DNA of 64,000 bases from a virus. The stretch is from IMG/VR virus record IMGVR_UViG_3300023251_000001, positions 1 through 64,000 of that record; one strand, given 5' to 3'. Made by a program: the position numbers and the translations under genes. Position 1 is the stretch's first letter. The number at the start of each line of letters is the position of its first letter. The notes below the pieces were generated by a model. The model saw only the letters and a list, made by a program, of their open reading frames with translations. It was not told the origin of the DNA and made no database searches. Shown piece after piece: positions 7,469 through 56,288 of the stretch.

Positions 7469-7489
7469 CGTTCCCTCCTCTAAGGGTTA

Positions 7490-8437
7490 CTATTCTGGTG
7501 TTGCCGTATAGGTAAGTGTGATTTCGTCATTGCCACCGGAGCGTGCCGCCCTGAATGGCAGATCAAAGATTCTTGTTCCGGACCTGTCCCCAGGTGTGAT
7601 ATTCATAATTTGGCACTTAGGCAGAGTGAAGGTAATCGTGGTGACCGCATCTGCGATTACATACGACAAAGCAGTAGCCGTTCCAGCTTGGAATTGTGTC
7701 AGAAACGGAATACTTGCATTAAGAGCCGACAAAGGATTAAATGATCCTTCTGCATTTCTTGCGGTAATATCAATTCCTGCGATACCATACGCTCCACCAG
7801 TTGAGTCAAGAGTTGGTCGCGCATAAAGTGTATTCTTCAAACCGAACGACAGTGATTCAACTTCTGGAAGAGTGCCGCCCCAAGAAAGAGCCTGATTGAT
7901 ACAGACAAAAGGCTTGCTAATGTCCCCGCCGCAAGGCCCAACTGGGAATACGAGAGGAGCATAAGGCGTGAAGAGTGATTGGAATGTGAATGATGCCTTT
8001 GCGGGTTTTCCAGCTTCTAGAGTAAATTCAACATCTCCTCTAGCTCCGCTCGCTTTCCAAACCTGTCCGTCTAGATGCACCCACAAAGTAACAGAACTTG
8101 CCCCGGCGGGATAAGTTGTATACGGAGTGTAAGCACCCGCTAAATATGCGTACCCGCATGCTTTAAGCAGCGCGTCGCACGGCGCGATTAACGGAGTCGC
8201 GGGAGTTGCTCCTGTGCCAGTTAGTTCATGATCGAATGTAATGTCGAGATACTGCTTGCCTAACGTACCTTCTCTTGCAGACATAGAACAGTCCTGCGTT
8301 TCAGTGTCATTCCACTCAGTATTAGGACTTACGCTTACGTTGTATGCGCCAACCATGTCTGTAGCCGCTGCAGGAGTGGTATCAGCGCCATACGTAGTTT
8401 CTAGCTTAGCCAGCACCATAGTTTTTTCAGTTAGCAT
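7490..8437 (-). CDS. Major tail (tube) protein
   Basis: A 315-residue, Thr/Ala-rich, beta-predicted protein beginning MLTEKTMVLAKLETTYGAD, the usual opening of phage tail tube subunits. It sits directly before the chaperone pair. The ATG overlaps the stop of the small gene upstream (TAATG at 8437). Confidence 0.8.
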   Translation of the reverse strand: MLTEKTMVLAKLETTYGADTTPAAATDMVGAYNVSVSPNTEWNDTETQDCSMSAREGTLGKQYLDITFDHELTGTGATPATPLIAPCDALLKACGYAYLAGAYTPYTTYPAGASSVTLWVHLDGQVWKASGARGDVEFTLEAGKPAKASFTFQSLFTPYAPLVFPVGPCGGDISKPFVCINQALSWGGTLPEVESLSFGLKNTLYARPTLDSTGGAYGIAGIDITARNAEGSFNPLSALNASIPFLTQFQAGTATALSYVIADAVTTITFTLPKCQIMNITPGDRSGTRIFDLPFRAARSGGNDEITLTYTATPE

Positions 8438-8568
8438 TATTTGTTCTCCTCTACTTCAGCTGGCTTGTCTGTGGTCTTCACAACAGGCGCTTTAGTCTTT
8501 GTAACAGTTACCGGTTCCTTCTCTTTCTTAGGTGGTTTTGGTGGGCCACCATAAAATGTCTTTCCCAT
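8437..8568 (-). CDS. 43-residue Lys/Pro-rich protein
   Basis: A short frame with a good ribosome site (TAGGAGATAATC-ATG). The protein starts MGKTFYGGPPKPPKKEKEP and is disordered-looking and highly charged. It is translationally coupled to the tail tube gene. No function is recognised. Confidence 0.65.
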   Translation of the reverse strand: MGKTFYGGPPKPPKKEKEPVTVTKTKAPVVKTTDKPAEVEENK

Positions 8569-8577
8569 GATTATCTC

Positions 8578-9066
8578 CTATAGTGTTGTGTCAACCCTAG
8601 CTTTAGTGAAAACCCACACAGAACCAACGTAAGCTGCTTCTGTTTCGTCTCTGGTTGCTCTGGTATAATTGATGCTGAATTCTGGACCGAACATGGTTAT
8701 GTATTCTCTTCCGTAGTCGCCAGCATTGAATTTCTTCATGAATTTCACAAGTGCGTCTCCATACCTATGCTTCATTTTGTCAAGCTTTGTTGGATCTTGC
8801 TCAATCATTATGATTACTACTGCTATCTCGTTATCAGCAACTAGCTCGCACCCCAATGACAGAGTTGAATCAACATCTTGTTTAGCACCGAGGATTTGAC
8901 ATACTGGATACTTGTTATAGATTGTGAAATTAGGATCAAAGTCCCACGAATAACTAGCAGGGACAGGAAGTTCCAAAGTCTCTCCTAGTCTCGTTCTGTA
9001 GTCGTCAAGGACATCATCAAAGTTCACCTTTAACTTTCTCTCAAGTTCATATTTGATTGCTTCCAT
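8578..9066 (-). CDS. Probable tail terminator / completion protein
   Basis: 162 residues from the ATG at 9066, which follows GAGGAG and overlaps the preceding stop (TAATG). An upstream in-frame start at 9138 would lie inside the previous gene and is less likely. Position between the virion-morphogenesis gene and the tail tube fits a tail-completion role. This is positional inference. Confidence 0.6.
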   Translation of the reverse strand: MEAIKYELERKLKVNFDDVLDDYRTRLGETLELPVPASYSWDFDPNFTIYNKYPVCQILGAKQDVDSTLSLGCELVADNEIAVVIIMIEQDPTKLDKMKHRYGDALVKFMKKFNAGDYGREYITMFGPEFSINYTRATRDETEAAYVGSVWVFTKARVDTTL

Positions 9067-9596
9067 TATGACTCCTCGAAACCATAATCTTCCATCATTG
9101 CAGACTTCCAGTTGCCTTCTTGTCTTCCAATCTCCCACATTGCGTAGTCACGTATCATCCTAACCCACTTAGACGCAGTGCCAACAGGAACTTCGATTAC
9201 TTTCCTGACTGGGTTGTTCCCAAGTCCATGCTGATGAGCGTAAGGATAGTGATAACCATTCTTGCTAGTGGTGCTGGTTCCAATCTTCAATTCGCGAGGA
9301 GAGATATTATTTATGCTTCCACGCGCTGTTTGTGTGGTAAGAGAGTCTCTCATTCCTCCGAACAGAACCATTATTGGCTGACCTGGGGCAACACGCGCCT
9401 TCCAAGCTGCATACTTATCGGTCAATGGTTGCCATGGAGTATAGCCACCAATAGTAAACTGTTGCTTCATCAAACGATAAAAGTCTTGGCTAATATTTTC
9501 GAAAGCAGGAGAGAAGTCTTTCACTCTTTCGCCTATGCCATCTATCGTTTTAAGTATCTTGTCTTCACCAGCAATCTCAAACGAAAGCTGAAACAT
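9066..9596 (-). CDS. Phage virion morphogenesis / tail completion protein (Mu gpG-like)
   Basis: About 176 residues. The segment YTPWQPLTDKYAAWK followed by FGGMRDSLT is typical of the virion morphogenesis (tail completion S) family. I place the start at 9596, one base after the upstream stop. A start at 9620 is possible but has no ribosome site. Confidence 0.65.
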   Translation of the reverse strand: MFQLSFEIAGEDKILKTIDGIGERVKDFSPAFENISQDFYRLMKQQFTIGGYTPWQPLTDKYAAWKARVAPGQPIMVLFGGMRDSLTTQTARGSINNISPRELKIGTSTTSKNGYHYPYAHQHGLGNNPVRKVIEVPVGTASKWVRMIRDYAMWEIGRQEGNWKSAMMEDYGFEES

Positions 9597-9597
9597 G

Positions 9598-10047
9598 TTA
9601 GTAAACTTGCCCCATTTCATGCTTTAACGCATGTTGCAGCGGGTTTCCATCAAGAAACGTGCTTCTAATGTCAGTGTCTGCCTCGCTTGTTAAATCTATC
9701 GCGTCAACAAGAAAACGCGGTGAGTTTTCAATCCTATCCATGCCTTCTTTGTATCTTGCGTAGTACAATTCTTCGCGAGGCGACAAATTTAAGACGTTCC
9801 CACCGTAGGAACTTTGTGTCCTGGCACAAACGCCGTTCAGCACGATGTTGTGGAGAATTGAGTATGAGATTGGCTGTCCAGTTTTCGTCGGAACAGCTAA
9901 TCTTGCTACATTGACACACCCTTTTATTTCTGACTCCACATCTAGAATTATGCTCTCTACCTCGGCGCTTGAGGGCTGGCTTGTCTCGCTAAACTCTATG
10001 GAAAGCTCGCTTCCTACGTCCCTACGAACTAAGAATTGTCCAGCCAT
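9598..10047 (-). CDS. Probable head-tail connector / head completion protein
   Basis: 149 residues with a strong ribosome site (AAAGGAGTAACAG-ATG). It is predicted alpha/beta and unlike the homing endonuclease upstream. It is the first structural gene after that insertion. A connector role is inferred from order (capsid, connector, tail completion, tube). No diagnostic motif was seen. Confidence 0.5.
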   Translation of the reverse strand: MAGQFLVRRDVGSELSIEFSETSQPSSAEVESIILDVESEIKGCVNVARLAVPTKTGQPISYSILHNIVLNGVCARTQSSYGGNVLNLSPREELYYARYKEGMDRIENSPRFLVDAIDLTSEADTDIRSTFLDGNPLQHALKHEMGQVY

Positions 10048-10050
10048 CTG

Positions 10051-10740
10051 TTACTCCTTTTCCATCCATTCGTTGAAGGTTTCTTCAGTAGCAATATTTC
10101 CATACACATGGTGATAGTTCTTATGGCATTTTTTACATAACGTTATTCCGTTGCTGAGTAATGTTCTTTCGTTTTTGTTGTCAGCGTAACCAAGAATGTG
10201 ATGCGTGCGCAGCTTACCGCCTCTTTCACCACATTTTTGACATGTATAATCATCGCGCTCGAATACTGCTTTATGCCATTCTGAATATTCAGAGCAAGAC
10301 CTATCGTTCAGCCTTTCCTCATCAGTCTTATCAAACTTCCAGCTAGGGCTAAGCGGCCCTTTCCTGCCTGTGACAGCCTCTACTTGAAGACAACCGCAAG
10401 ATTTTGTGGATGCACTAATCAACGCGTCTGATCTAATATAACAAATATTTCCGCAACTGCACAAACACCGCCACATGACAGATCCATTGCTGCTTCTTCT
10501 GTCAGTCGCCTCTATGGCTACAAGCCTGCCAGATCTTAATCCAGAAAGATCTTTTTTCTTTGCACATCCACAAGAAATAATAGTTTTAGTTTTCAAACTG
10601 CTTGTATCTACGTAAGCGACACCGCCACACTCACATGAGCATTCCCAAACAATGTTGTGGCCCATCCTTTTTTCTGTCGGCCTAATAGCGGTCAATCTTC
10701 CGCACTTAAACCCTGTATAATCTTTAGCGCTCGGATGCAT
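10051..10740 (-). CDS. HNH homing endonuclease with two N-terminal zinc-ribbon repeats (copy 1)
   Basis: 229 residues. Two repeats of about 60 residues carry the pattern GxLxAIxPTxxR...W.C.C.CG...SCGC. A C-terminal HNH domain follows (CQKCG, THHILGY, LCKKCHKNYHH, about 165-215). It is a paralogue of the genes at 20638 and 35723. It lies between two structural genes without disrupting either, as expected for a free-standing homing endonuclease. Confidence 0.9.
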   Translation of the reverse strand: MHPSAKDYTGFKCGRLTAIRPTEKRMGHNIVWECSCECGGVAYVDTSSLKTKTIISCGCAKKKDLSGLRSGRLVAIEATDRRSSNGSVMWRCLCSCGNICYIRSDALISASTKSCGCLQVEAVTGRKGPLSPSWKFDKTDEERLNDRSCSEYSEWHKAVFERDDYTCQKCGERGGKLRTHHILGYADNKNERTLLSNGITLCKKCHKNYHHVYGNIATEETFNEWMEKE

Positions 10741-10745
10741 ATGAA

Positions 10746-11069
10746 TTAGCTTGAAACAAACTTTTCATAAAGATCCAAATCGTCAAGCGTGATTTGATTC
10801 GCTTCGTTCTTCTTAACGAATACCTGTTTCACTTTGTTGAAAATAATCTCATCGATGGTGAAGTTTCGCGTAGATTCAGAAGATTCTTTCCAATGGGTTT
10901 CCCCGGTATCGCTGTCGTACTCCATTCCAATCTCTTTTAGCTCGGCTGAATCGAAACCTATATCATCCATCACATTTTTCATAACACGCATTGTAATAAT
11001 ATCACTCTGCATGCCTTTAAGAATTTGTAATAGTATAATCCTCTCTTTAATTGCAAGTTCAATATTCAT
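10746..11069 (-). CDS. Unknown 107-residue acidic protein
   Basis: The start at 11069 is chosen because CAGGAGGGAAAA precedes it. The first helix (IKERIILLQILKGMQSD) and high Asp/Glu content are visible. It is the first gene after the promoter at 11098-11126 and leads the tail operon. No family is recognised. Confidence 0.7.
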   Translation of the reverse strand: MNIELAIKERIILLQILKGMQSDIITMRVMKNVMDDIGFDSAELKEIGMEYDSDTGETHWKESSESTRNFTIDEIIFNKVKQVFVKKNEANQITLDDLDLYEKFVSS

Positions 11070-11172: not shown

Positions 11173-12054
11173 TTAAGCTGTGGCCGCAAAGTATTGTAGA
11201 TACTTCGGTGTCCCATCGATTGTGATTACAACTGATCCTTCTGCTGCAACTCCAGCACCCGTAGCCGCCGCTACAACTGGAGCTGTTCCTGCAGCTGGCA
11301 ACGCAAACAGGTTAGTGTGCGCGCCAACAACGGCCAGCACGTTAGTAGGCGTACTAGTCGTATTCTCAGAATGGAAAGCACTGGTTAGTGTGCCAGAAGC
11401 ATTGACCCGATAACCGGTATCAAGCTTTGATCCAGCTTGCACTCCCAGATAGATTCCACATGTATCAACTGTCATTGCGTTTGTTTCGCGCCAGTTGATG
11501 CGGATTCCACTTACCTTTCCGTAGAAAGGTGAGCCTGTTCCAGTGATGTCTTCTGTGCCGTGAACCATTACGCCAATACCGGCTATGTTGCCAGTTTCAG
11601 CCATATTGCAAGCAGCCGTTTCCAGCGTTGCGAATACACCATAAACCTGATTAACTTCCGGTATTTCACTTCCTACGGCACCGTCAATTGTGACAGCGCC
11701 ACGGATAGCATAAGAGTCAGTCAAATCATGCTTAATATCAATTCGACCATAAACTGCCTGAGCTACTGCATTCGTGCCAGAATCACCAGTTGTGGTGAAC
11801 TTGACGTGAAGTGGGATGATGTTTGAATCATCATCAGTGCTTCCAGAAATATGGATGCACTGACCAATTACATGCTCAGAGACTTCACCAAATGCGATAG
11901 CATTTGAATAATCACCCAAGGCAATGGCGGCACCGGTAATACCAGTCCCCCATGTACCTGAAATATCAATGTGATGGTCATCCACCACGCCTAACATCGT
12001 TAGAGTGTTAGCCCACAGAGGATATCGACCACGAATCTTTCTGTTAAACTTCAT
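11173..12054 (-). CDS. Probable head fibre / capsid accessory protein
   Basis: 293 residues, Gly/Thr/Ala-rich with many short beta repeats (GIxV, ISGTW, GAAIAL). The pattern suggests a beta-rich surface protein. A strong ribosome site (TAGGAGGCGACC) precedes it. Being last in the head transcript, right after the major capsid gene, suggests a decoration or fibre role. Confidence 0.5.
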   Translation of the reverse strand: MKFNRKIRGRYPLWANTLTMLGVVDDHHIDISGTWGTGITGAAIALGDYSNAIAFGEVSEHVIGQCIHISGSTDDDSNIIPLHVKFTTTGDSGTNAVAQAVYGRIDIKHDLTDSYAIRGAVTIDGAVGSEIPEVNQVYGVFATLETAACNMAETGNIAGIGVMVHGTEDITGTGSPFYGKVSGIRINWRETNAMTVDTCGIYLGVQAGSKLDTGYRVNASGTLTSAFHSENTTSTPTNVLAVVGAHTNLFALPAAGTAPVVAAATGAGVAAEGSVVITIDGTPKYLQYFAATA

Positions 12055-19472: not shown

Positions 19473-19797
19473 TGGTGTAGGTGGCGGGATTCGAACCCGC
19501 GTGTTGTTGCGTTCTTTGGCAGGATGCCACTAGGAATCTCCAGTCTTTAAGTCGCAGCCGGTTACTAGGACTGGCAAAGTTCGCCGCCTGCTATTCGCGG
19601 TTGTTAATCAGCTAGGTTATTGCGAAGCTTGCTAGTTGATATAGCTATAGTCGATACTTTTCTCGAAGGTAACTATCCCCGCAGAGAAAGCAGTTAAATA
19701 CTCGTCGTAAATAACGTTTGTTTGATTGTTCTCGGTTATTGTTAATGTTGCCTAGCACCTGAACATTTCTCGCACCAATCGATACCATGTCACCCAC
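19473..19797 (-). ncRNA. ssrA: Transfer-messenger RNA (tmRNA)
   Basis: About 325 bases. The 5' end GTGGGTG pairs with CACCTAC near the 3' end (7 pairs, one G-U), followed by A and an encoded CCA. The 3' part has a T arm (GCGGG-TTCGAAT-CCCGC), as in tmRNA. The 5' part (GACATGGTATCGATTGGTGCGA, then CAGGTGCTAGGC) resembles the conserved 5' domain. A promoter lies 12 bases upstream. tmRNA with SmpB rescues stalled ribosomes. I could not fix the tag reading frame. Confidence 0.82.
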
Positions 19798-33639: not shown

Positions 33640-34977
33640 TTAACTCAATCCTTGTTCGTACTCTACCATCCACTTAAGAGCCGAAGCTGAGAAGCCACAA
33701 ATATTAACCCATGGGCCATATCCGATAGAATTCTCGTAGGACGCGACATCCATCATATAGCCTCTTCCATCTGGAGCAGGAACATTCGACCGGGACTGCA
33801 TGTCAGAGACAAAGATCGTCCTGTCAAATCCTGGAGCAGCTTTCTTAGCAAATCTGTAAGCTTGCTGAAAGTCAGTCCCGTGTCCAACTTGCCCAGAACT
33901 GAATGAATCTACAAACGCGAAACCTCTACGTGCAGGAACTTCAATCGTAGTAGAAGCAAACGAGAAGGCTCTTACCTCTTCTCCTAACTCCCTGATCATA
34001 GAACCAAACACAGCGCCAGCTTCTTGTGCGGTAACCACCGACCTTCCGGAGATGGTCGTCTGCATAGATCCAGACGTGTCAACGAGCAGTCTAGTCTTGC
34101 CTTTCAACTTAGGCTGCGACTCCAAAGCCCTAAGCATCAAGGTTTCTAGCTCAGTTTCGAAAACTGGCTCAATCTTTGCCGCAACGTAGAAACGGAAAGG
34201 CAAAACTCTACTAACGTTCAACGACAGTAGGTATTCCTTGATCTTGTAAGTATCAATGCCTGCTTCTGTCATGTTACGCAGGTTTCTGATGGCGGCCATC
34301 GCACCAAGCTTGTTCTCTGCCATTAGCCTCTCGAAGGTTTCCCTCTTGCTGGCTCCACCTGACAATGCGACTTCCCAGGTGTCCGGAGACTCAAGAGTGT
34401 CGTCTGCTAACCTCTTGAAGACAGCTGCTTGCTCTTCATCCTTTGGCTTTGGCCTAGAGATAAACATAGCGTCTCGAAGCGTTACAGCACGATCCTTGCG
34501 GTTATACTTGCCTAGCCTGTAGGCGTCAAACTTGGTGAACGCATCAGCAATACCAAGTCTTAATTGCCTAGGGATAGACTTATTCTTATGCGGGTCGCTC
34601 GCGGAATCACCAAGGAACATAGCAAGAATCTCGCCTAGCTCGTCAGGACGCTGGATTACGTTGTAAACCAAGTCCCTGATAAGGCTGTTGTTCTTCTTGT
34701 CCTTAAGCAATGAGGCGATCAACCAGAGAGGCGCATGCCTCAAATTGTAATCAGTCCTCGCTGTTACAGCAAGATTGGCAGCAAACTCAGGCTCGACATT
34801 CTTGACTAAACTGGTAATTCTCTCAGCAATGCTTTCTCCTGACTCATAGAACGTGTCTTCGAATAGCATGCATGAAAGGACAGACCTAACCAAGTCCTGT
34901 TCTGCTGTAGTTCTATTTACCACAGCGCCTTCGTGAGTCCTTGGCGCAAAACCTGTAACCTTTCTGTTCGTCTGCAT
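33640..34977 (-). CDS. rsr: Ro60 / TROVE-domain RNA-binding ring protein
   Basis: 445 residues. Residues 1-285 are a HEAT-like TROVE domain (RTDYNLRHAPLWLIASLL, IPRQLRLGIADAF, GAMAAIRNLRNMTEAGID). Residues 296-445 are a von Willebrand A domain with an intact metal site (DTSGSM, 300-305). Ro60 rings bind Y RNAs and the ends of misfolded RNAs. The start at 34977 follows AGGAGGGAATT. Four structured RNAs lie directly upstream, as bacterial Y-RNA genes lie next to rsr. Confidence 0.93.
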   Translation of the reverse strand: MQTNRKVTGFAPRTHEGAVVNRTTAEQDLVRSVLSCMLFEDTFYESGESIAERITSLVKNVEPEFAANLAVTARTDYNLRHAPLWLIASLLKDKKNNSLIRDLVYNVIQRPDELGEILAMFLGDSASDPHKNKSIPRQLRLGIADAFTKFDAYRLGKYNRKDRAVTLRDAMFISRPKPKDEEQAAVFKRLADDTLESPDTWEVALSGGASKRETFERLMAENKLGAMAAIRNLRNMTEAGIDTYKIKEYLLSLNVSRVLPFRFYVAAKIEPVFETELETLMLRALESQPKLKGKTRLLVDTSGSMQTTISGRSVVTAQEAGAVFGSMIRELGEEVRAFSFASTTIEVPARRGFAFVDSFSSGQVGHGTDFQQAYRFAKKAAPGFDRTIFVSDMQSRSNVPAPDGRGYMMDVASYENSIGYGPWVNICGFSASALKWMVEYEQGLS

Positions 34978-35027
34978 AATTCCCTCCTTTTCAGCTTGCA
35001 CATAATTGTGCAGCAACTACATCTTTA

Positions 35028-35726: not shown

Positions 35727-36436
35727 GTCGTGCCAGAAAGACATTCGTCACCTATCCACTCTAGGAACATTTCTTCTGTTGAATGTCTCCCGTAAATACG
35801 GTGGAATTTCTTATGGCACTCATCGCAGAGCGTCACGCCATTATTTAATTCAAAGCGCAATCCTGGGTTGTCTGTGAATCCTAGAATGTGATGCGCGTTT
35901 AGTTTTCCACGTAATTTTCCACATTTTTGGCACACAAACAAATCTCTTTCATAAACCATTTGACGCCACTCATAGTATTTTGGACTGCTTCGATCAGAAT
36001 GCCTATCGTCGTCTGTTTTATTTGGGTTCCAATTAGGATTTAGCGGACCTTTCCTAGTACTCATAACGTCTTTATGCAGACACCCACATGATTTTGTAAG
36101 CTCGGCAACAAGACTAGCCACAGGGATATATGCAAAATTTCCGCAATCACACCTACACTTCCAAACAACGCTACCATTAACCCTCTTGTCGGTAGGCTCT
36201 ATGGCTACCAATCTTCCAAACCTCATCCCAGTTAAGTCTCGTTTACGCAACTCTCCTCTAAGGCACCCGCATGATCTTGTCCCACCTGTGGTAAGATGCG
36301 GGCTAGTGACGAGAGCGAGTGCGCCGCAGTCGCATCGACATCTCCATACAACGCCACAATCTTTTCTCATGTTAGTAGGCTCTATAACGACTAACCTTCC
36401 AAATCGCTGGCCGGTTAAATCTCTAATCTCGCTCAT
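35723..36436 (-). CDS. HNH homing endonuclease with two zinc-ribbon repeats (copy 3)
   Basis: 237 residues, same architecture as copies 1 and 2 (SGCGCL-type zinc knuckles, then CQKCGK, NAHHILGF, LCDECHKKFH). Its last codons contain the GGTGACGAATGTC promoter motif and its TGA stop overlaps the -35 box, so the gene end and the promoter are shared DNA. Confidence 0.9.
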   Translation of the reverse strand: MSEIRDLTGQRFGRLVVIEPTNMRKDCGVVWRCRCDCGALALVTSPHLTTGGTRSCGCLRGELRKRDLTGMRFGRLVAIEPTDKRVNGSVVWKCRCDCGNFAYIPVASLVAELTKSCGCLHKDVMSTRKGPLNPNWNPNKTDDDRHSDRSSPKYYEWRQMVYERDLFVCQKCGKLRGKLNAHHILGFTDNPGLRFELNNGVTLCDECHKKFHRIYGRHSTEEMFLEWIGDECLSGTT

Positions 36437-37950: not shown

Positions 37951-37976
37951 GTTTATTGAGGTGGACATTCGTCACC

Positions 37977-38357
37977 TTTTTGCTCCTTATGCCCGTTTAT
38001 GCCCGTTGCTTTTCTCTCCTAAACACATTGTACGATATTCAGCGGCTATTTGTCAAGGGCTGAAATTCTCCCCCTATATACATCACGCGCACGTACGCGA
38101 GTTTGATCTATGAATCTACTAGTATTATCATTCTACTGTTCTTGACTTTGAACTATAAACCTATACTAACATCATACCCGTCTCCGAGGGTGCTTTGATA
38201 ACTTACGGTCTAGTAGTGTTTGTAGTCTTTTAGTCCTGTAGTAAGTTATACAGAAAAGGTGACGAATGTCTTCTTTTTTTCACAGACAATCTTCCCCTCT
38301 AAAAACGAAGATGATCAGCTTTTTTGGTGTATAATGGTGTTCAGGAGGAAAGAAAAT
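37977..38357. other. Divergent control region
   Basis: About 380 bases without genes between leftward and rightward transcription. The GGTGACGAATGTC motif is present at both ends in opposite orientation (37976-37964 and 38254-38266). A doubled TTATGCCCG lies at 37988-38006, and one further leftward promoter is listed separately. A -10-like TATAAT (38330-38335) serves the rightward gene. Confidence 0.6.
38027..38056 (-). promoter_or_regulatory. Distal leftward promoter
   Basis: TTGACA (38056-38051), an 18-base spacer and TACAAT (38032-38027). It reads through the doubled TTATGCCCG and the proximal promoter. Confidence 0.65.
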
Positions 38358-45668: not shown

Positions 45669-46120
45669 CGATCAAGATATTCCCATGCTGATAATAAAGT
45701 ATTCCCGTTGTCGTTGAAATTTCCGAGGCCGTGATTGCATGCCCTGCATAGCAAACCACGAACCTTGCCAGTTTTATGATCATGGTCAATGTGGACTCCC
45801 ATTTTCCAAGTAGATGGAATCTCTTTGCCGCAAATAGCGCAACCTCCTAGTTGTTCCTTGTACATTCTATCGTAATCGTCAAACGTCATACCGTAAAGAT
45901 ACTTCAGCGTCTCTGCCCTCTCCTTCAAGCTGAGAGGCAATTTGGACTTTCTTCCTCGCATTGGACCCATTTTACGAACCTTGTATCCGTTGCGTTCCAA
46001 CCTACGTTTAATGGTAGTTTTATGAACGCCCTCAATAGCACCTAGCTCTCTCAGTGATGCCTTCTCATCTCCGTAGTATAATTCTGCTAGTTCTTCAATC
46101 GGCATGCTTTTCTTGGTCAT
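45665..46120 (-). CDS. Endonuclease VII-type recombination/homing endonuclease
   Basis: 151 residues. N-terminal HTH (LRELGAIEGVHKTTIKRRLE, about 22-42). The C-terminal domain has CAICGK, HIDHDHKTGKVRGLLCRACN and LGNFNDN, the zinc-HNH signature of phage T4 endonuclease VII relatives. These cut branched DNA or act as homing enzymes. Confidence 0.88.
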   Translation of the reverse strand: MTKKSMPIEELAELYYGDEKASLRELGAIEGVHKTTIKRRLERNGYKVRKMGPMRGRKSKLPLSLKERAETLKYLYGMTFDDYDRMYKEQLGGCAICGKEIPSTWKMGVHIDHDHKTGKVRGLLCRACNHGLGNFNDNGNTLLSAWEYLDR

Positions 46121-46140
46121 TGTAATTCCTCCTAACTGCT

Positions 46141-46169
46141 ATTATAGCACAAGTTGTTGCAACCGTCAA
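46141..46169 (-). promoter_or_regulatory. Promoter of the endonuclease VII gene
   Basis: TTGACG (46169-46164), 17 bases, TATAAT (46146-46141). Confidence 0.85.
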
Positions 46170-46179
46170 GTCGGTTTAC

Positions 46180-47640
46180 TGTGTTATAGGAGATGGAATG
46201 GGTAGAGAGTCTGAGAATCCTCAAAATTATATTTTCCTGCAGGTCTATGGATGCGAGATTACGACTCCGTAAAGTACTGACAGATTTTTAACTTTGATTG
46301 AATGTTTATGGTAAAGCTTAATGGGTGAAGAGTCGGGAAAATGGGAGATGTGACGTAAGTGTAGGGTAGCTCGCGTTATCGTATGGGAGGGGATGCCCAG
46401 GGGCGGCCTATTCAATCACAATTAACTACAATCAATTAGAATATAGGAAAGAAACAGCCGATAATGGGCCTATTATCGGGAGTTGTTGCGTCTTGTTCGT
46501 GCTATTTGGAGTTGTTCAATCGCTAAAGCGCTATTCTGATCTATGTTATAGCGATTTTATTTTAGCGCTCGCAACATTCCTCATACTTATGATGCGAGTA
46601 CTATTGGTCGATTTCTCCTATGTTTCAATAGTTTCAGTTATGATTGAACTGATTGAACTAACTTAGGTGTGACGTGATGGCACTGTATGCATTTGGTATA
46701 CAGTGTACTCAAGTCAATGAGCGTATCCCTTATCCTATCTAGAGAAATTGACTTCTACTCTACTTAGTCCACTGCTTAGCTAACCTATCGCCTCATTTCT
46801 CCTAGTTTATAATAGAAACTCCCAGCGCCTCCCTCTCTCCACTAGTACTAACCACAGTGTAATATAAATGAGGGGATATAGGGACATCGTCCCAGATCTA
46901 TATAGATTCAAGCAAAGTTAGGTGGATCATGCTCACCTATATAGGACGGCGTTATTGTACTGCCCACACGTACAGGATCAAGGACAACTGTCCTCTCTAG
47001 CATGGACACATGTCTCCTCTGTATAGGACAGCTGACCATTGAGATGTCTTCGTTAAGATGGATACTCTTATCGGTTCATTGACAAGTTGACTTGCTCATG
47101 AGTATCGCGTGGACAGTGTATAACCGCCCTAACAGGTCCATAAGTACACCGGTTACAGTGCGTCAATCAAACGCCCTCAATGCCAGAGTAAACGGTCTTA
47201 AGTCACTACTGGCAGCCTAACACGTGCGGATAAAATCATGAGACGGTTAACAGGTTAACGGTCATTTACAGCAGAAACTATGAGCTTCCCCTAGAAAACG
47301 GGGATTATGCCCATTATATGAACAACGTCCACTGAAAAGGTGGATTCCTCCTAGAAAAGAGGAGATGAGACGCAACTATCGTTGTTCCTGCACATAATAG
47401 AGGGGTTTCCATAGCTCCTCGCTTGTTCTCAGATGTTTGGGGCAAGCTACTCAGAACATATTCAACAATCTGTATTTCAGCTGGAGAATCCGGCTTTATA
47501 GGATAATCCACTTAGATATAGCCTTCTAGATGATAGTGGTCTACAATGAATGATTCGCAGGTAGAATCAATCAAAGTTAACGAAACGTCGTCAACATGAG
47601 GGCTATCTCATGAAACTAACTAGATTGTAGTAGAAACACT
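46180..47640. other. 1.46-kb non-coding region with many hairpins
   Basis: No frame has a convincing gene on either strand. Perfect dyads include CCGATAAT/ATTATCGG (46458-46479), AATCGCTA/TAGCGATT (46518-46556), CACTGTAT/ATACAGTG (46681-46705) and GGGAC/GTCCC (46881-46893). Three similar hairpins occur at 47288-47364. It lies between leftward and rightward blocks and could be an origin or control region. Confidence 0.7.
47288..47364 (+). repeat. Three similar hairpins with A-rich loops
   Basis: CCCC-TAGAAAAC-GGGG (47288-47303), TCCAC-TGAAAAG-GTGGA (47328-47344) and CTCCT-AGAAAAG-AGGAG (47348-47364). Stems differ while the loop (TAGAAAA-like) stays similar, which suggests selected RNA structure. 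Confidence 0.6.
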
Positions 47641-47653
47641 GAGAAATTAGTTA

Positions 47654-47677
47654 GGTTTCCCATCTTGCCCTATATCC
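47654..47677 (+). repeat. Cassette 0 left end (E0R)
   Basis: 24 bases beginning GGTTTCCCATCTTGCC. Its reverse complement matches 48633-48656 with 21 Watson-Crick pairs, two G-U and one A-C. Confidence 0.75.
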
Positions 47678-47695
47678 TAATAGGAGGTAGGAGCA

Positions 47696-47893
47696 ATGAC
47701 TCTTTTACAGTACAAAACCGGCAAACGCAGTAAGATTCAGTCGAAAGTATTCATTAACCAGTACTTCGCAGAGAAGTGGGTTGATTCATGCAGAGACTAC
47801 TTACAATGGTGGAGTTATAGCAACTCCAACAAGATTGTATCAATTGCTGGTGAAATCTTGTTTGATTTCGTAGAATCTGAACGAACATACTAG
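47696..47893 (+). CDS. Small W-W domain protein (paralogue family C), cassette 0
   Basis: 65 residues. FINQYFAEKWVDSCRDYLQWWSYS shows the family pattern: aromatic strand, A.KW helix, then paired Trp. AGGAGGTAGGAGCA precedes the ATG. The first of five genes in cassette 0. Confidence 0.7.
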   Translation: MTLLQYKTGKRSKIQSKVFINQYFAEKWVDSCRDYLQWWSYSNSNKIVSIAGEILFDFVESERTY

Positions 47894-47905
47894 GAGTGAT
47901 GGGAA

Positions 47906-48103
47906 ATGCATATGTTAATCTACAGGCTAATGGAAGATAATGATTCTAAGGTACTTACGTTCGTTTCTGCGAGTTGTGCATACAAGTTCCTAGTTAAACT
48001 GCAAAGTAAGCCGATTTGGTGGACTTTGTGGGAGATTGGGGAGGTTTGCACAAAAGATGGTAGTCATTCACATATCTTCGTAGATTCGGAGGGAATATCA
48101 TGA
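47906..48103 (+). CDS. Small W-W domain protein (family C), cassette 0
   Basis: 65 residues: TFVSASCAYKFLVKLQSKPIWWTLWEI repeats the family pattern. Its stop overlaps the next ATG (ATGA). Confidence 0.7.
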   Translation: MHMLIYRLMEDNDSKVLTFVSASCAYKFLVKLQSKPIWWTLWEIGEVCTKDGSHSHIFVDSEGIS

Positions 48104-48303
48104 AACATTACATAGTCTGGTTCAAACTGATAGATCATGAGACAATTCAAGCAATGGAATGTGATTCTACGAGCGAAGCCTACAATCTCCTACTTTTCTA
48201 TGCAAAGTCCTTGGAATGGTGGGAATTGTATGACAACGAATATAAACTCACAGAAGAAAGTAAAGCTGTGCAGTTTAGAATCGCTTCTAGGAAGTACTCA
48301 TGA
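48100..48303 (+). CDS. Small W-W domain protein (family C), cassette 0
   Basis: 67 residues: ECDSTSEAYNLLLFYAKSLEWWELYD. Overlaps both neighbours by 4 bases. Confidence 0.7.
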   Translation: MKHYIVWFKLIDHETIQAMECDSTSEAYNLLLFYAKSLEWWELYDNEYKLTEESKAVQFRIASRKYS

Positions 48304-48509
48304 TTACTCACGTAGTCTGCTACAAAACACGCAATTCAAGGTGCGTCTATGTAGAGCTATTTCATTCTCTGGTCTTTGCGGAGAAATGGATAACTTCTCA
48401 TGGTCGTCACCATGTTTACTGGATTTTGAAGGAAATTACAGGATTTCATGCCGAAAAAGGGTGTGCCACCTATAAAATCCTCAAAACAGATGAAAGTGAG
48501 GAGAAGTGA
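48300..48509 (+). CDS. Small W-W domain protein (family C), cassette 0
   Basis: 69 residues: ELFHSLVFAEKWITSHGRHHVYWILKEI. Overlaps the previous gene by 4 bases. Confidence 0.7.
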   Translation: MITHVVCYKTRNSRCVYVELFHSLVFAEKWITSHGRHHVYWILKEITGFHAEKGCATYKILKTDESEEK

Positions 48510-48620
48510 ATGAAACGTATTGAAATCAACGAGATTCAACCGATAGGTAGCAAAACCTGCAAGTTTATCCGCAAGATGCTTGTAAAATGGGGTATCCTGC
48601 AGCAAGTTATAGGATACTAG
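48510..48620 (+). CDS. 36-residue basic peptide, end of cassette 0
   Basis: MKRIEINEIQPIGSKTCKFI... with GAGGAGAAGTGA before the ATG. It ends 12 bases before the cassette's right end repeat. Confidence 0.55.
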   Translation: MKRIEINEIQPIGSKTCKFIRKMLVKWGILQQVIGY

Positions 48621-48632
48621 GACAAACAAGGC

Positions 48633-48656
48633 GGATATAGGGCAAAATGGGGAATC
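48633..48656 (+). repeat. Cassette 0 right end (E1L)
   Basis: 24 bases (GGATATAGGGCAAAATGG...), inverted match to 47654-47677. Confidence 0.75.
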
Positions 48657-48680
48657 TAACTGATAACTATGGAAAAGACG

Positions 48681-48710
48681 TATAATTTGCATCATTCTGC
48701 CCTTTTGTAG
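48681..48710 (+). promoter_or_regulatory. Junction -10 box and cassette 1 left end (E1R)
   Basis: TATAAT (48681-48686), one base, then the 23-base end repeat (48688-48710, TGCATCATTCTGCCC...). The repeat is the inverted match of 49290-49312 (22 of 23). Confidence 0.75.
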
Positions 48711-48729
48711 GATAAAAGAGGAGCAAAGA

Positions 48730-49020
48730 ATGAGAGTGTTCATATTAAGATATGAAATGTTCAAAGATGAGGTAAAATGCTCAAAGTGCTTCAATACTCC
48801 TTATTCCGCCTACTTCTGGGTCGATAAGAACAGGTTAGGCATGAAATGGGTAAGTTGCCATCAATTATGCACAACTGTATCAACTGTTGGCATGATTGAT
48901 GAGAAACTCTGTTTTTCTAGGGGTTTCAATGAAGATGGCAGTCTTTCTACTAGAACTCCGTGGGGAATCCCATATTATGAGGAAATCTGCGAGAAACTAG
49001 GAGAAGCTAATGCTTCATGA
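48730..49020 (+). CDS. Unknown 96-residue protein (family C-like), cassette 1
   Basis: CSKCFNTPYSAYFWVDKNRLGMKWVSC carries a zinc knuckle and a KW motif like its neighbours. AGAGGAGCAAAGA precedes the ATG. Confidence 0.65.
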   Translation: MRVFILRYEMFKDEVKCSKCFNTPYSAYFWVDKNRLGMKWVSCHQLCTTVSTVGMIDEKLCFSRGFNEDGSLSTRTPWGIPYYEEICEKLGEANAS

Positions 49021-49273
49021 TGGAAGGTTGTATATTGTAACATCTTTGGCTAGAAATGCACCGATTCGCCCCAATTCTGGCGATTTCAAGGTGAAAACAT
49101 TTGCGACTGCCGAACTTGCGGATAAATGGTTCGAAGCTAATCAATCCTACTTAGAGTGGGCCGAATTTAGCAGAACCTCTCCAGTTAGGCACAGAGATGG
49201 CAGTTTCATACGGTTTATCAGCAAAACCTTTAAGTTCGATGAAGAGCAAGGTTTTTGTGTGAGAAGGTCGTAA
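49010..49273 (+). CDS. Small W-W domain protein (family C), cassette 1
   Basis: 87 residues: TFATAELADKWFEANQSYLEWAEFSR keeps the family pattern with Trp-Ala for Trp-Trp. Overlaps the previous gene by 11 bases. Right end repeat begins 16 bases after the stop. Confidence 0.68.
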   Translation: MLHDGRLYIVTSLARNAPIRPNSGDFKVKTFATAELADKWFEANQSYLEWAEFSRTSPVRHRDGSFIRFISKTFKFDEEQGFCVRRS

Positions 49274-49289
49274 AACATAGGACAAATAG

Positions 49290-49312
49290 CTACAAATGGG
49301 CAGAATGATGCA
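49290..49312 (+). repeat. Cassette 1 right end (E2L)
   Basis: CTACAAATGGGCAGAATGATG..., inverted match of 48688-48710 with one mismatch in 23. Confidence 0.8.
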
Positions 49313-49330
49313 CTTTATACGTCGAACGCC

Positions 49331-49358
49331 TATAATCTGCATCATCCTACTCATTATG
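49331..49358 (+). promoter_or_regulatory. Junction -10 box and cassette 2 left end (E2R)
   Basis: TATAAT (49331-49336), one base, then the 21-base end repeat (49338-49358). Inverted match of 50171-50191 (20 of 21, one A-C). Confidence 0.8.
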
Positions 49359-49395
49359 CTTAAGAACTGCAGCAATTGCTGCAAAAAGGAGCAAA

Positions 49396-50148
49396 ATGAG
49401 TACAAGATGCCAAGTTCAACTAGTTTTTGAAGGAAATGATTGGAATACCGGCGAAGCCAAGACATTCTGGGATAAATCCATTGTTTTGTATCATCATTGT
49501 GATGGTTACCCAGAAAACATGATACCTGTGCTGATTAGAGCATATGGTAGTGGAATGGCTGGTATTGTAGGAGATTACCTCAGCTATCATGAGGATCTAA
49601 GTGGATTCAGCGGACACTACTATGATTCATTGTTTAGTAGTGCAAAAGCGGTGAATTACATAGTTGCTGCTGATCCTAAGCATTTTGAAATAGAACCTAA
49701 TGGTTGTAGGGAGTTTCTGCATGGAGATATTGAATTCTTTTATAGAGTATTCATTTCTCCTACAAAGTGGGAGATTCAAGTATTTACCCCTGATAACCGC
49801 AAAGATTTCTGGGAAACTGCTTCAATCCACTCGCTTGTAGCAATTACTCCTAGAATGTCCTTAAAGCTAGCAGCCCAATGGGTCGTGAATACGCTAGGAC
49901 AGAAGCTAATGGTTTCTCCTATAAAGAAGGCGAAACCAGCAGTTTCTCCTACAAATGATGCACTTCTCACAGAAAACTATATGATTGCATATGCTTCAGT
50001 GGATTTCGGTGAAGATGGTTCAATCATGTTTGAAACAAGGGAAGAAGCGGATGTTTGGATAGAAGAACATAAAAGCGAAGTGCTTTTCGCTGATTTGTAC
50101 GTAAGAGATTGGAAACACATTGTTTGGATCAGACCTACAGTGAAGTAA
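49396..50148 (+). CDS. MSTR-type protein with C-terminal family C domain, cassette 2
   Basis: 250 residues. MSTRCQVQL and LYHHCDGYPENM belong to a phage family with this N-terminus, of unknown role. The last ~60 residues (FETREEADVWIEEHKSEVLFADLYVRDW) repeat the family C fold. This is a fusion of two modules. AAAGGAGCAAA precedes the ATG. Confidence 0.72.
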   Translation: MSTRCQVQLVFEGNDWNTGEAKTFWDKSIVLYHHCDGYPENMIPVLIRAYGSGMAGIVGDYLSYHEDLSGFSGHYYDSLFSSAKAVNYIVAADPKHFEIEPNGCREFLHGDIEFFYRVFISPTKWEIQVFTPDNRKDFWETASIHSLVAITPRMSLKLAAQWVVNTLGQKLMVSPIKKAKPAVSPTNDALLTENYMIAYASVDFGEDGSIMFETREEADVWIEEHKSEVLFADLYVRDWKHIVWIRPTVK

Positions 50149-50170
50149 GCACAACCTGAGCAAAGTATAG

Positions 50171-50191
50171 CATAATGAGTAGAATGATGCA
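50171..50191 (+). repeat. Cassette 2 right end (E3L)
   Basis: CATAATGAGTAGAATGATGC..., inverted match of 49338-49358. Confidence 0.8.
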
Positions 50192-50209
50192 TTTTATAGG
50201 CAAATACCT

Positions 50210-50238
50210 TACAACCTGCATAATCCTGCCAATTACCA
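50210..50238 (+). promoter_or_regulatory. Junction -10-like box and cassette 3 left end (E3R)
   Basis: TACAAC (50210-50215), one base, then a 22-base end repeat (50217-50238), inverted match of 50720-50741 (20 pairs, one G-U, one A-C). Confidence 0.72.
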
Positions 50239-50252
50239 ACAGGAGTTGCGAT

Positions 50253-50699
50253 ATGTTGATAGCACATCCTACAACTGAAGATCATTACAGGAAATATGCT
50301 GAACTTGCAGAGCTTACCGGATTTACCCCTACATCTCATCATCCTATGGGAGAATATGAGTATCTTCTGGAGAAATACCTAGAAGATCATCTACTCAACA
50401 ATATTCCATTGAAAGAATGGGATTCATGGGGAGTTTGGCTACAATGTAGCACAAAACGCCTAAGTACAGCAGAACTGTGCTGCTTAGGCAAACACCTAGT
50501 CATTTACCGTGTTTTAGGTGCATTTCCCATCTTTTACAAGAGAATTCATGGGAATTGTCTAACAACTACTGGATTCATAGAGCTTTCAAGGATTTCTCAG
50601 AGAGTATATGAGGATCTGGACAAGAATCAGGAAAAGTATGAAGTTTGGGCAGAACAGACTAGAAACCGCTTTATTGAAGCGAATGTTAAGATAGTCTAG
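50253..50699 (+). CDS. Unknown 148-residue protein, cassette 3
   Basis: MLIAHPTTEDHYRKYAELAEL..., helical, with a Cys pair (ELCCLGKHLVIYRVL) and a long C-terminal helix. ACAGGAGTTGCGAT precedes the ATG. Confidence 0.7.
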   Translation: MLIAHPTTEDHYRKYAELAELTGFTPTSHHPMGEYEYLLEKYLEDHLLNNIPLKEWDSWGVWLQCSTKRLSTAELCCLGKHLVIYRVLGAFPIFYKRIHGNCLTTTGFIELSRISQRVYEDLDKNQEKYEVWAEQTRNRFIEANVKIV

Positions 50700-50719
50700 C
50701 TTTAACTGTTACAAAAAGC

Positions 50720-50741
50720 TGGTAGTTGGCAGAATTATGCA
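50720..50741 (+). repeat. Cassette 3 right end (E4L)
   Basis: TGGTAGTTGGCAGAATTATG..., inverted match of 50217-50238. Confidence 0.75.
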
Positions 50742-50786
50742 GATTGTAAGGGCAATACACATCTTACCACAGATTGAAGGAGAATT

Positions 50787-51023
50787 ATGTACAAGTCAAT
50801 CGAATTGGTGATTTCCTTAGAGAATGATGCATTTAATGCAAACTTCTCGGATGTTCGCAGTGAAATGAGTGGAATGTGTGAGAGAATCATAGATTACACT
50901 GAAACTGCGGCAATGTTAGGGACTGATGGTGAAAGATGCTGGCCTATAGTAGATTCCAATGGAATTGAGGTAGGTTACATCAAAACTGTTGATCTTAAGG
51001 AGGAACCCACATGTTCTTACTAA
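50787..51023 (+). CDS. Unknown 78-residue protein
   Basis: MYKSIELVISLENDAFNANF..., alpha/beta. GAAGGAGAATT upstream. First gene of the last rightward group. Confidence 0.68.
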   Translation: MYKSIELVISLENDAFNANFSDVRSEMSGMCERIIDYTETAAMLGTDGERCWPIVDSNGIEVGYIKTVDLKEEPTCSY

Positions 51024-51232
51024 TCTTCCGATTTGTCGGTGAAACTGCGTGGAATTACAGAGAAGTTGATGAGATATATGAAGAACAGCAACTTCTTATT
51101 CATTACTCGCGGATTGCAGGGAAAGTTATTGAAGAATCCCAGCGTCTAGGAGGAAATGATGAAATCTGTGCATTCTTAGGAGTAGATGTGGAAAGTACTG
51201 AGATTAAGCATGAAAAGGTGGTATGGTCATGA
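51011..51232 (+). CDS. Unknown 73-residue helical protein
   Basis: Overlaps the previous gene by 13 bases. AAGGAGGAACCCAC serves as ribosome site. VDEIYEEQQLLIHYSRIAGKVI is a long helix. Confidence 0.66.
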   Translation: MFLLIFRFVGETAWNYREVDEIYEEQQLLIHYSRIAGKVIEESQRLGGNDEICAFLGVDVESTEIKHEKVVWS

Positions 51233-51549
51233 AAATGCCTGAATCCATAGTGAATAAACTACATCCTGCTAGATTTAGCGAGATGTCACCTAAAATGGCT
51301 GCATTTGTGGGGTTTATATGCGATGTTGCTTATACTGACCCAAAAATCACAAGTGTTAGCGTAACATCAGATGGTTTCCTACTTTGTCAGAGAAATCATG
51401 ATGTTTGGCATAGTTCATTTGAAGGTTCCTATCTTGACCTAGAAAACAATATGTTGCGCTTGTTTGATGCAGCTTTGCTGACAGATGACGAGCAATACAC
51501 GGCTTCTAGTGTAATGAGAGGAAAAATCACAGATTGGAGGATAAATTAG
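51229..51549 (+). CDS. Unknown 106-residue protein
   Basis: ATG at 51229 overlaps the upstream stop (ATGA). Contains ITSVSVTSDGFLLCQRNHDVW, a small beta hairpin domain. Its TAG overlaps the next GTG (TAGTG). Confidence 0.68.
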   Translation: MKMPESIVNKLHPARFSEMSPKMAAFVGFICDVAYTDPKITSVSVTSDGFLLCQRNHDVWHSSFEGSYLDLENNMLRLFDAALLTDDEQYTASSVMRGKITDWRIN

Positions 51550-52169
51550 TGACACATGTTAAAATCTCGGAGAAAAACAGCAAGTTAGGTCGAATTGCCA
51601 ATATTTCGGTAGTTCCTGTTGAAAGCTGCCCAAACTCAGGGTTTTGTCATGAGTTGTGCTATGCTCGACCTATTTATAATAGGTTTCCTCATACTAAAGC
51701 AGCTTGGGATAGGAACTGGGAGATGTTCAAACAATCTCCTAGAACCTATCGGGATTCCATCATTTATATGCTAAATCATGGAAAGCTCGGCACTTCTGGG
51801 CTTTTCAGGTGGCATGTAGGAGGAGATATTCCAAACCAGGAGTATCTAGGCATTATGGCTGAAATTGCTGAGTCTTTCCCAGAAACTGAGTTTATGGCCT
51901 TCACTAAGGCATATTCTCTTGACTTCTGTGGAGTTCCAAGTAACTTCCATACAATCATGTCTGCTTGGGCAGGAATGCCCATAAACACTGACTTTCCAAT
52001 AGCTTATGTGAAAGAATTGGATAATCGGTGGGAAGATCATGAGATTGTTTATGATTGTGCAGGAGATTGCAGAAGTTGCCGAAAGTGCTGGGAAGCTGAG
52101 AAAGGTTCAGCTATTACCTTGCATTTACATGGAACTAAGGCAAAATCAATACTTTCCGCATTAAACTAG
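51549..52169 (+). CDS. GP88-family phage protein
   Basis: 206 residues from a GTG at 51549 (GGAGGATAAATTA upstream). NSKLGRIANISVVPVESCPNS, CHELCYARPIYNRFP, AAWDRNWEMFK and FRWHVGGDIPNQEYL are the hallmarks of the GP88 family. Cys clusters at both ends (including CRSCRKCW) suggest a metal or Fe-S site. The biochemical role is unknown to me. Confidence 0.82.
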   Translation: MTHVKISEKNSKLGRIANISVVPVESCPNSGFCHELCYARPIYNRFPHTKAAWDRNWEMFKQSPRTYRDSIIYMLNHGKLGTSGLFRWHVGGDIPNQEYLGIMAEIAESFPETEFMAFTKAYSLDFCGVPSNFHTIMSAWAGMPINTDFPIAYVKELDNRWEDHEIVYDCAGDCRSCRKCWEAEKGSAITLHLHGTKAKSILSALN

Positions 52170-52177
52170 GAGGAAAC

Positions 52178-52402
52178 ATGTACACACACGTAAACTTCCC
52201 AACAAAGAAGAGTTTGAAGCAGGCTGTAGCAGCTTTCAATGAAACCGGTGAGAATCCAGTTACTTTCTATCAACCTGGGCCATTTGGAGGTAAAGAAACT
52301 CAAAATGGGTCATTTTGCGTAGAAGGTCCGCATTATCCACAACCTCACCGGTTTTATGCTAGTTGTAGGGCGAAAGACGGTGTAATTGTGAAGGTGTCCT
52401 AG
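52178..52402 (+). CDS. Unknown 74-residue protein
   Basis: MYTHVNFPTKKSLKQAVAAF..., then a Gly/Pro/His-rich half. Ribosome site AGGAGGAAAC. Confidence 0.68.
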   Translation: MYTHVNFPTKKSLKQAVAAFNETGENPVTFYQPGPFGGKETQNGSFCVEGPHYPQPHRFYASCRAKDGVIVKVS

Positions 52403-52534: not shown

Positions 52535-52548
52535 GTTAGCACATTTGA

Positions 52549-52585
52549 GGGTAAGTCACCTGAAACTAGGTGGCTTGCCCTTTTT
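52549..52585 (+). terminator. Intrinsic terminator of the rightward group
   Basis: A 13-bp stem (GGGTAAGTCACCT/AGGTGGCTTGCCC, two G-U), 6-base loop and TTTTT. Confidence 0.93.
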
Positions 52586-52607
52586 CTATGCCTTCCTGAT
52601 CTATTTG

Positions 52608-52650: not shown

Positions 52651-52680
52651 AGACTTAAGCATAATCTATTTCAATCTGTG

Positions 52681-52873
52681 GTAACATGTTGTAACATGAG
52701 ATGATGTAACATAGGATCACATGTCAGGATATGACAGGCGAAAATATGTTGGAATAAAAAATCCTGGGCGAAAATATACTTCAAGTGAAGTCAAGCGAAT
52801 TCGGGCGAAACTAGGCAAGCGAAAATTAGGCGAAAATCTCAAGCGAATTTAGCCAAGCGAATCCTGGGCGAAA
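52681..52873. repeat. Direct-repeat array: 3 x GTAACAT and 9 x GCGAA
   Basis: GTAACAT occurs at 52681, 52691 and 52706. Nine copies of (A/G)GCGAA(A/T) begin near 52737, 52767, 52793, 52803, 52817, 52828, 52840, 52855 and 52867, many about one helical turn apart. The array ends 3 bases before the small-terminase-like stop and could be a packaging site or origin. Confidence 0.75.
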
Positions 52874-52876
52874 AAC

Positions 52877-55572: not shown

Positions 55573-55909
55573 CTGCACTCATATCAAGTGTCTCATTGAA
55601 CTCCATAGTTATATCTCTCGACCCATCATCCTCGGCAATCGATTCTAAGGCACCTGTAGTCCCATGGGTTAATGACCTTAGTAAACGAACCGCATCTATA
55701 CCAGCCACTCGGCTTACACGCCTCTTGAGCGGACCCTGAAGGTAACGTATCAATTGATTACGGTGTGTAAATCCCCATTCCCGTGCTAACTGTACCATCG
55801 AATCAGCTTCTATCAACTCGATAAGTTGGAATCTAAGAGCAGGAACCGCTTCCATTTTCTCCCAGAATAACTCTTTGTAGACTGCTTCATCAAATGAATT
55901 TGTCTTCAT
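55556..55909 (-). CDS. HTH protein, possible sigma region-4-like partner
   Basis: 117 residues from 55909. FQLIELIEADSMVQLAREWGFTHRNQLIRYL contains a helix-turn-helix. Acidic C-terminal tail. It overlaps the sigma-region-2-like gene by 20 bases, which suggests the two act together. Confidence 0.55.
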   Translation of the reverse strand: MKTNSFDEAVYKELFWEKMEAVPALRFQLIELIEADSMVQLAREWGFTHRNQLIRYLQGPLKRRVSRVAGIDAVRLLRSLTHGTTGALESIAEDDGSRDITMEFNETLDMSAESSEE

Positions 55910-56288
55910 CAAACATATTCTCCAGATCCTCAATCGTTGTTTCTTCACCAAACGCCTGAGTGAAAGGTATTTCTCTCTGTGAGTATGCTGGGTACAGTAG
56001 TTGTCTCCGTCGCCCAGCTGCATACTCTCCGCTTTTATGTCTCTTGATAAACTGTCTCGCAGTTTGTGTTATGAACGCATCAAGGCTACTGATTAACCCG
56101 TCGTCTAATTTACTGGTGAGGATTATTAGTATCTCTTGCACGATGTCATCTGCATCAGCTATTGAGCGAATGTGTGACCTTACAAAGTCGTCTAGAAATT
56201 CGATTGAGTAACCACATACCGCCTCGATGGCACTGTCATTGCCAGAGTTGGCTTCATTTAGTAATCGTTGACTAATCACTTTAATCAT
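55890..56288 (-). CDS. ECF-type sigma region-2-like protein
   Basis: 132 residues. IRSIADADDIVQEILIILTSKL and FITQTARQFIKRHK match sigma region 2 (core binding and -10 recognition). No region 4 follows in the same protein. It could redirect host RNA polymerase to late promoters. Confidence 0.62.
   Translation of the reverse strand: MIKVISQRLLNEANSGNDSAIEAVCGYSIEFLDDFVRSHIRSIADADDIVQEILIILTSKLDDGLISSLDAFITQTARQFIKRHKSGEYAAGRRRQLLYPAYSQREIPFTQAFGEETTIEDLENMFDEDKFI

Follow-up and report, generated by a model that had tools for sequence, protein, structure and literature searches.

An uncultivated phage represented by a 71,605-bp record (IMGVR_UViG_3300023251_000001), of which bases 1-64000 form the 64,000-nt window analysed here, carries at 47.7-52.4 kb a block of small rightward genes, although leftward is the direction of most of its genes. 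The block consists of consecutive cassettes, and the first four (C1-C4, those recognised in an earlier note on this DNA) are each bracketed by a sequence and its own inverted copy, termed here the left and right arms; C5 is the fifth block directly downstream. On balance, each cassette is probably a closed RNA domain within one read-through message, sealed by a helix resembling the leader-trailer helices of ribosomal RNA (rRNA) precursors. This reading draws on arms that match only within a cassette, on pairing retained while the paired bases change, and on strong folding of the coding RNA. The arms and the terminator that accompanies them are located as follows.

47646-47677, + strand: left arm of C1, partner of 48633-48664
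48633-48664, + strand: right arm of C1, starting 12 nt past the last stop codon
48677-48710, + strand: left arm of C2, partner of 49290-49323, with TATAAT at 48681-48686
49290-49323, + strand: right arm of C2, starting 16 nt past the stop codon
49328-49360, + strand: left arm of C3, partner of 50169-50201, with TATAAT at 49331-49336
50169-50201, + strand: right arm of C3, starting 20 nt past the stop codon
50207-50238, + strand: left arm of C4, partner of 50720-50751, with TACAAC at 50210-50215
50720-50751, + strand: right arm of C4, starting 20 nt past the stop codon
50759-50783, + strand: left arm of the fifth pair (25 nt), partner of 52665-52689, overlapping a ribosome-binding site
52547-52586, + strand: intrinsic terminator, the sole strong one seen on this strand between 46 and 53.7 kb, preceding the fifth right arm
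52665-52689, + strand: right arm of the fifth pair, partner of 50759-50783

The four pairs lie where the earlier note placed them, but it saw only their inner part and gave a length of 21-24 nt. The ungapped arms are 32 nt long in C1 (28 Watson-Crick and 3 G-U pairs), 34 nt in C2 (31 pairs), 33 nt in C3 (30 pairs) and 32 nt in C4 (29 pairs and 1 G-U). In a scan of the entire record for ungapped inverted repeats with partners no more than 3.5 kb apart, these pairs occupy ranks 1-4 with scores of 20-25, and the outcome is unchanged when G-U or A-C is permitted. The pair 50759-50783/52665-52689, which the earlier note overlooked, ties for fifth rank, and a fifth gene module is probably likewise bracketed by its own matching pair. 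Among 40 sequences of 64 kb generated with a first-order Markov (Markov-1) model, no pair scored at least 17 and none matched even the fifth pair. Consecutive cassettes are separated by linkers of only 12, 4, 5 and 7 nt. Left arms of C1-C4 stop 5' of the ribosome-binding site, and right arms begin 12-20 nt past the final stop codon.

When the arms of C1-C4 are aligned on a C-A site and compared over 34 columns, a common plan emerges: an outer helix of 8-9 bp, then one or two weak positions followed by 8 bp, and after the C-A site an inner helix of 13-14 bp. The C-A mismatch occurs at position 19 in C1, C3 and C4, in agreement with the mismatch reported for three of the four cassettes, and is replaced by T-A in C2. 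At 23 of the 34 columns both sides have changed between cassettes with pairing retained, so pairing itself looks maintained; together with the fixed geometry, this bears out the suggestion that pairing is selected and makes it look like a conserved property of the arms. Compensatory changes of the kind sought in leader-trailer stems, with their complementary flanks, are present in the arms. The claim that matching is private to each cassette also holds: the number of paired positions is 30-31 when a left arm meets its own right arm versus 14-25 with the right arms of other cassettes, and own arms form duplexes of -45 to -49 kcal/mol versus -7 to -28 kcal/mol for cross pairs among C1-C4. Hairpins formed with the neighbour at the junctions reach only -8 to -21 kcal/mol, and the minimum free energy (MFE) fold of the 3.1-kb RNA contains the closing helices. 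A core is nevertheless common to the arms of C2-C4, in which TGCATNATNCTGCC occurs in both orientations; nothing like it was found at full strength elsewhere in the phage genome.

Folding also extends into the genes. For 480-nt cassette windows without arms, the mean z-score against dinucleotide shuffles is -2.99 compared to -1.18 for other phage genes (p=1.8e-4). With synonymous-codon shuffles, which keep both protein and codon use, coding segments of C1-C5 (n=15) have a mean z of -3.0 compared to -0.56 for 45 other phage genes (p=7.5e-6) and +0.48 for the neighbouring rightward operon. The 111 open reading frames (ORFs) outside the block have a mean z of -0.35, and just 2 fall below -3, both of them leftward genes of the virion region that are folded as strongly as the cassettes (6624-6956, z -5.4; 11173-12054, z -5.0). 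The MFE of cassette RNA is about -0.31 to -0.33 kcal/mol per nt. Cassette coding RNA is under selection-like folding. Sense RNA folds more strongly than antisense RNA (z -2.97 versus -1.98, p=0.036), its z weakens to -2.1 when G-U pairs are disallowed (p=0.018), and the asymmetry between strands is larger in cassettes than in controls (p=0.037); the stronger sense-strand folding and its dependence on G-U point, modestly, to RNA rather than DNA.

No strong terminator was seen between cassettes from C1 to the end of the C5 genes, so that full arms would share one read-through RNA. The earlier note described a -10-like box at three junctions, ending just outside the new left arm, and proposed that messages begin there. 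The boxes exist as TATAAT in C2 and C3 and, less convincingly, as TACAAC in C4, with none in C1. They sit within the paired arm and not outside it, and no -35 hexamer was found 16-18 nt upstream of any of the three. Perfectly paired private sequence of 8-9 bp extends through and 5' of the box. RNA begun at the box would omit these outer bases, so selection on such RNA cannot account for them, unlike selection on a longer transcript that continues across the junctions. The panhandle idea may therefore stand as a closed RNA domain, with a folding signal that reaches the coding sequences, but not with a start at each cassette's own box. The rightward block is without consensus promoters and could be served by a phage sigma factor, for which 55890-56288 encodes a candidate with a borderline Pfam match to sigma-70 region 2 (24.8 bits, cut-off 24).

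In the proposed architecture, 47.6-52.6 kb would be transcribed rightward as a single polycistronic read-through RNA in which each cassette would be a separate folding domain. The arms of a cassette would pair in the cell across 500-1000 nt to form a helix of 32-34 bp, equivalent to some three A-form RNA turns, and the genes inside each domain would also fold tightly. Private arms would prevent pairing with the neighbouring domain; such privacy is expected because neighbouring arms, 4-12 nt apart, would otherwise form perfect local hairpins first. By analogy with precursor rRNA (pre-rRNA) leader-trailer helices, the helix would likely serve in processing and protection: cuts made within it by host RNase III or a comparable enzyme could free each cassette as an mRNA whose ends are base-paired. 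Alternatively, an uncut helix could insulate and stabilise each module.

Several points weigh against this reading. The minus strand folded likewise gives closing helices, and the arms are uninformative on strand, with 4 G-U versus 4 A-C mismatches; inside the cassettes, folding differs only modestly between strands. The array occurs in one genome only, so that covariation is seen among paralogous cassettes and not among orthologues. Located about 80 nt 3' of the terminator, the fifth right arm would be in RNA only upon read-through; because of this position and its differing geometry, the fifth pair may be a looser relative of C1-C4. A promoter for the rightward block was searched for and none was identified. 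An RNase III gene was not seen among the phage proteins searched, and a host enzyme is assumed.

The earlier note also considered modular elements with private terminal repeats, and this survives as an unlikely alternative: the cassettes would be DNA-level units that move or are rearranged in single-stranded or circular form, with the arms as their ends. Where the right arm meets the left in such a circle, a private and nearly perfect hairpin of about 33 bp would arise, to be recognised by its shape and not its sequence, like integron attC. Cassettes that abut with linkers of 4-12 nt, a core common to C2-C4 arms around partly unrelated cargo, ends that are private yet structurally uniform, a terminator enclosed by the fifth pair, and phage genes for a YqaJ recombinase, a single-stranded DNA-binding protein (SSB) and endonuclease VII are all consistent with this explanation. 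However, no tyrosine recombinase, transposase or Y1 enzyme was found among the proteins searched (Pfam and PHROGs, smallest ORFs left out), the linkers judged by eye have no target duplications, neither a second arrangement nor an empty site came to light (the lone overlapping contig is identical), and the stronger coding fold on sense RNA is left unexplained. The earlier note's own model, in which the -10 box of the left arm starts a message that closes with its own 3' end, is quite improbable. TATAAT is equally placed in C2 and C3, and the inner 21-24 bp would mostly be transcribed, yet the three boxes have no -35 element in a phage whose minus-strand promoters elsewhere read TTGACR-N17-TATAAT, C1 is boxless, the C4 box has a right-arm copy nearer consensus than its left-arm TACAAC, and the outer 8-9 bp are perfectly paired though they lie outside such a transcript.

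Functionless pairing was also weighed. Short inverted repeats within one molecule can be corrected to match, and gene conversion or quasi-palindrome template switching might keep arms alike in this way; an arm identity of about 90% inside one cassette is compatible with such correction. We nevertheless regard it as very improbable, because three cassettes keep the C-A mismatch at one column, although nearby columns, at 1-3 nt on either side, have changed in concert. Furthermore, the arm of the adjacent cassette, 4-12 nt away, would convert first and yet differs, and the fixed arm length is left unexplained. Very little credence is given to inward-facing divergent protein-binding or promoter sites at the junctions, built on the TGCATNATNCTGCC core in both orientations, with matching as a by-product: the core is common to C2-C4 arms and unmatched at full strength elsewhere in the genome, but private bases, with matches confined to one cassette, cannot be accounted for by a site common to several.

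The closed-domain reading has partial counterparts among known systems. In Escherichia coli, pre-16S and pre-23S leader-trailer helices depend more on structure than on sequence and are cut within by RNase III (PMC10250234). The likeness lies in complementary flanks that form an extended long-range helix around a long segment of a polycistronic transcript (PMC10250234), which the phage block would also produce; the phage segments differ in that they are protein-coding, stand four to five in a row, and have their own sequence each with a fixed helix length, and their cleavage is hypothetical. The icaR mRNA of Staphylococcus aureus, in which pairing between the 5' and 3' untranslated regions makes an RNase III substrate (PMC3868564), is likewise a bacterial mRNA with paired untranslated parts. 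However, icaR is a single gene in which pairing over the Shine-Dalgarno region represses translation, whereas the phage has a modular array; helices of C1-C4 end before the ribosome-binding site, and only that of C5 overlaps it. Bacterial operon mRNAs have been described as ORF-wide secondary-structure units (PMC5318159); the abstract of that account describes no dedicated closing helix, and the phage units would each be sealed by a private one.

Integrons carry cassettes in one orientation with recombination sites of private sequence, and their attC sites are recognised as folded single strands; the phage ends are likewise private. The phage arms differ in that they occur at both cassette ends, span 32-34 bases and include the pre-gene region. 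An IntI-type tyrosine recombinase in cis was absent from the same set of searched proteins, and attC core sites (RYYYAAC/GTTRRRY) were not noticed by eye at the junctions, for which no motif scan was made. A transposon is not indicated either, with no transposase found among the proteins searched and no target-site duplication evident by eye in the linkers. In RNA viruses with genome-scale ordered RNA structure, coding RNA is folded beyond expectation; in the phage, whose genome is double-stranded DNA, such folding is limited to some 5 kb. It is possible, though less likely than not, that this DNA phage has a previously undescribed modular mRNA architecture: consecutive coding modules that are autonomous, globally folded RNA domains, each sealed by a private three-turn helix of fixed design, which could be added or swapped without mispairing.

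The genes enclosed by the arms are listed below.

47696-48620, + strand: C1 genes, encoding four small related proteins (65, 65, 67 and 69 amino acids) and a 36-amino-acid ORF, several overlapping
48730-49273, + strand: C2 genes, encoding proteins of 96 and 87 amino acids of the small-protein family of C1
49396-50148, + strand: C3 gene, encoding 250 amino acids, without database relatives
50253-50699, + strand: C4 gene, encoding 148 amino acids, without relatives
50787-52402, + strand: C5 genes, encoding 78, 73, 108, about 206 (GP88 family) and 74 amino acids

The proteins of C1 and C2 include six divergent members of a single small-protein family. Its structure model is beta-beta-alpha-beta-beta-beta (predicted local distance difference test, pLDDT, 80) and matches, weakly, only uncharacterised phage proteins. 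The C-terminal part of the C3 protein resembles this family in a hand-guided alignment and may be a seventh copy; the model of the 250-residue protein is unusable (pLDDT 34). The GP88-type protein of C5 has only distant phage relatives.

The cassettes appear to be rare. No homologues were found by protein in viral contigs, genome contigs or INPHARED phages, nor by DNA comparison. A pattern search for the arm core returned 106 stretches, which, leaving aside the phage itself, were a coding motif or single matches, and contigs with TerL relatives of 80-100% identity are without the cassette core; NrdD and nuclease searches led to distant phages only. The same inverted-repeat scan over about 3.9 Mb of other phage DNA revealed no array of private flanking pairs: long inverted repeats there are single, or are shared palindromes at dispersed sites or copies of promoters (L200/L033, L219, L231, L267). 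Another NrdD-bearing phage, L219, has dispersed palindromes at 7000-10800 (AACAAGCTTATTxAGCTTGTTG) that are shared and not private. An Rfam search of 46.1-53.7 kb gave sub-threshold noise only. Contig IMGVR_UViG_3300025697_000031 (L009) is identical to the phage record over 10.75 kb; this lowers the likelihood of an assembly artefact, with the reservation that the records may be non-independent.

The phage encodes a Mu-type/P23-45-like portal, tape measure, TerL, DnaB, NrdD, SSB, a YqaJ recombinase and a TROVE protein, and has a tRNA gene cluster. The gene for the TROVE (Ro60-like) RNA-binding protein (33640-35016) lies amid the tRNA genes, and a transfer-messenger RNA (tmRNA) match occurs on the minus strand at 19473-19797 (Rfam 54.6 bits, cut-off 47) without an ARAGORN call. 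GACATTCGTCACCT occurs three times (35738-35753, 37964-37980 and 38254-38270) close to an HNH-type endonuclease gene, paralogues of which occupy different sites in the related contigs L014 and L017; these are likely homing traces. Just 5' of the cassettes, 46120-47640 comprises about 1.5 kb without convincing genes and with numerous small hairpins; 961 nt of it fold with z -2.96 (20 shuffles), it has no Rfam matches, and it is a possible large non-coding RNA. The perfect 14-nt inverted repeat around it (46288-46301/47567-47580) is at chance level for the window. At 52760-52875, 3' of the fifth right arm, dense GCGAAAAT/GCGAATT-like repeats are possibly iterons.

If the arms do close messages, phages apply an rRNA-style leader-trailer design to protein genes, in which orthogonal helices serve as address labels. 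The array would then offer a direct test of whether sealing at both ends, combined with folding of the coding region, stabilises bacterial mRNA, and it would provide four orthogonal closing helices ready for building stable transcripts.

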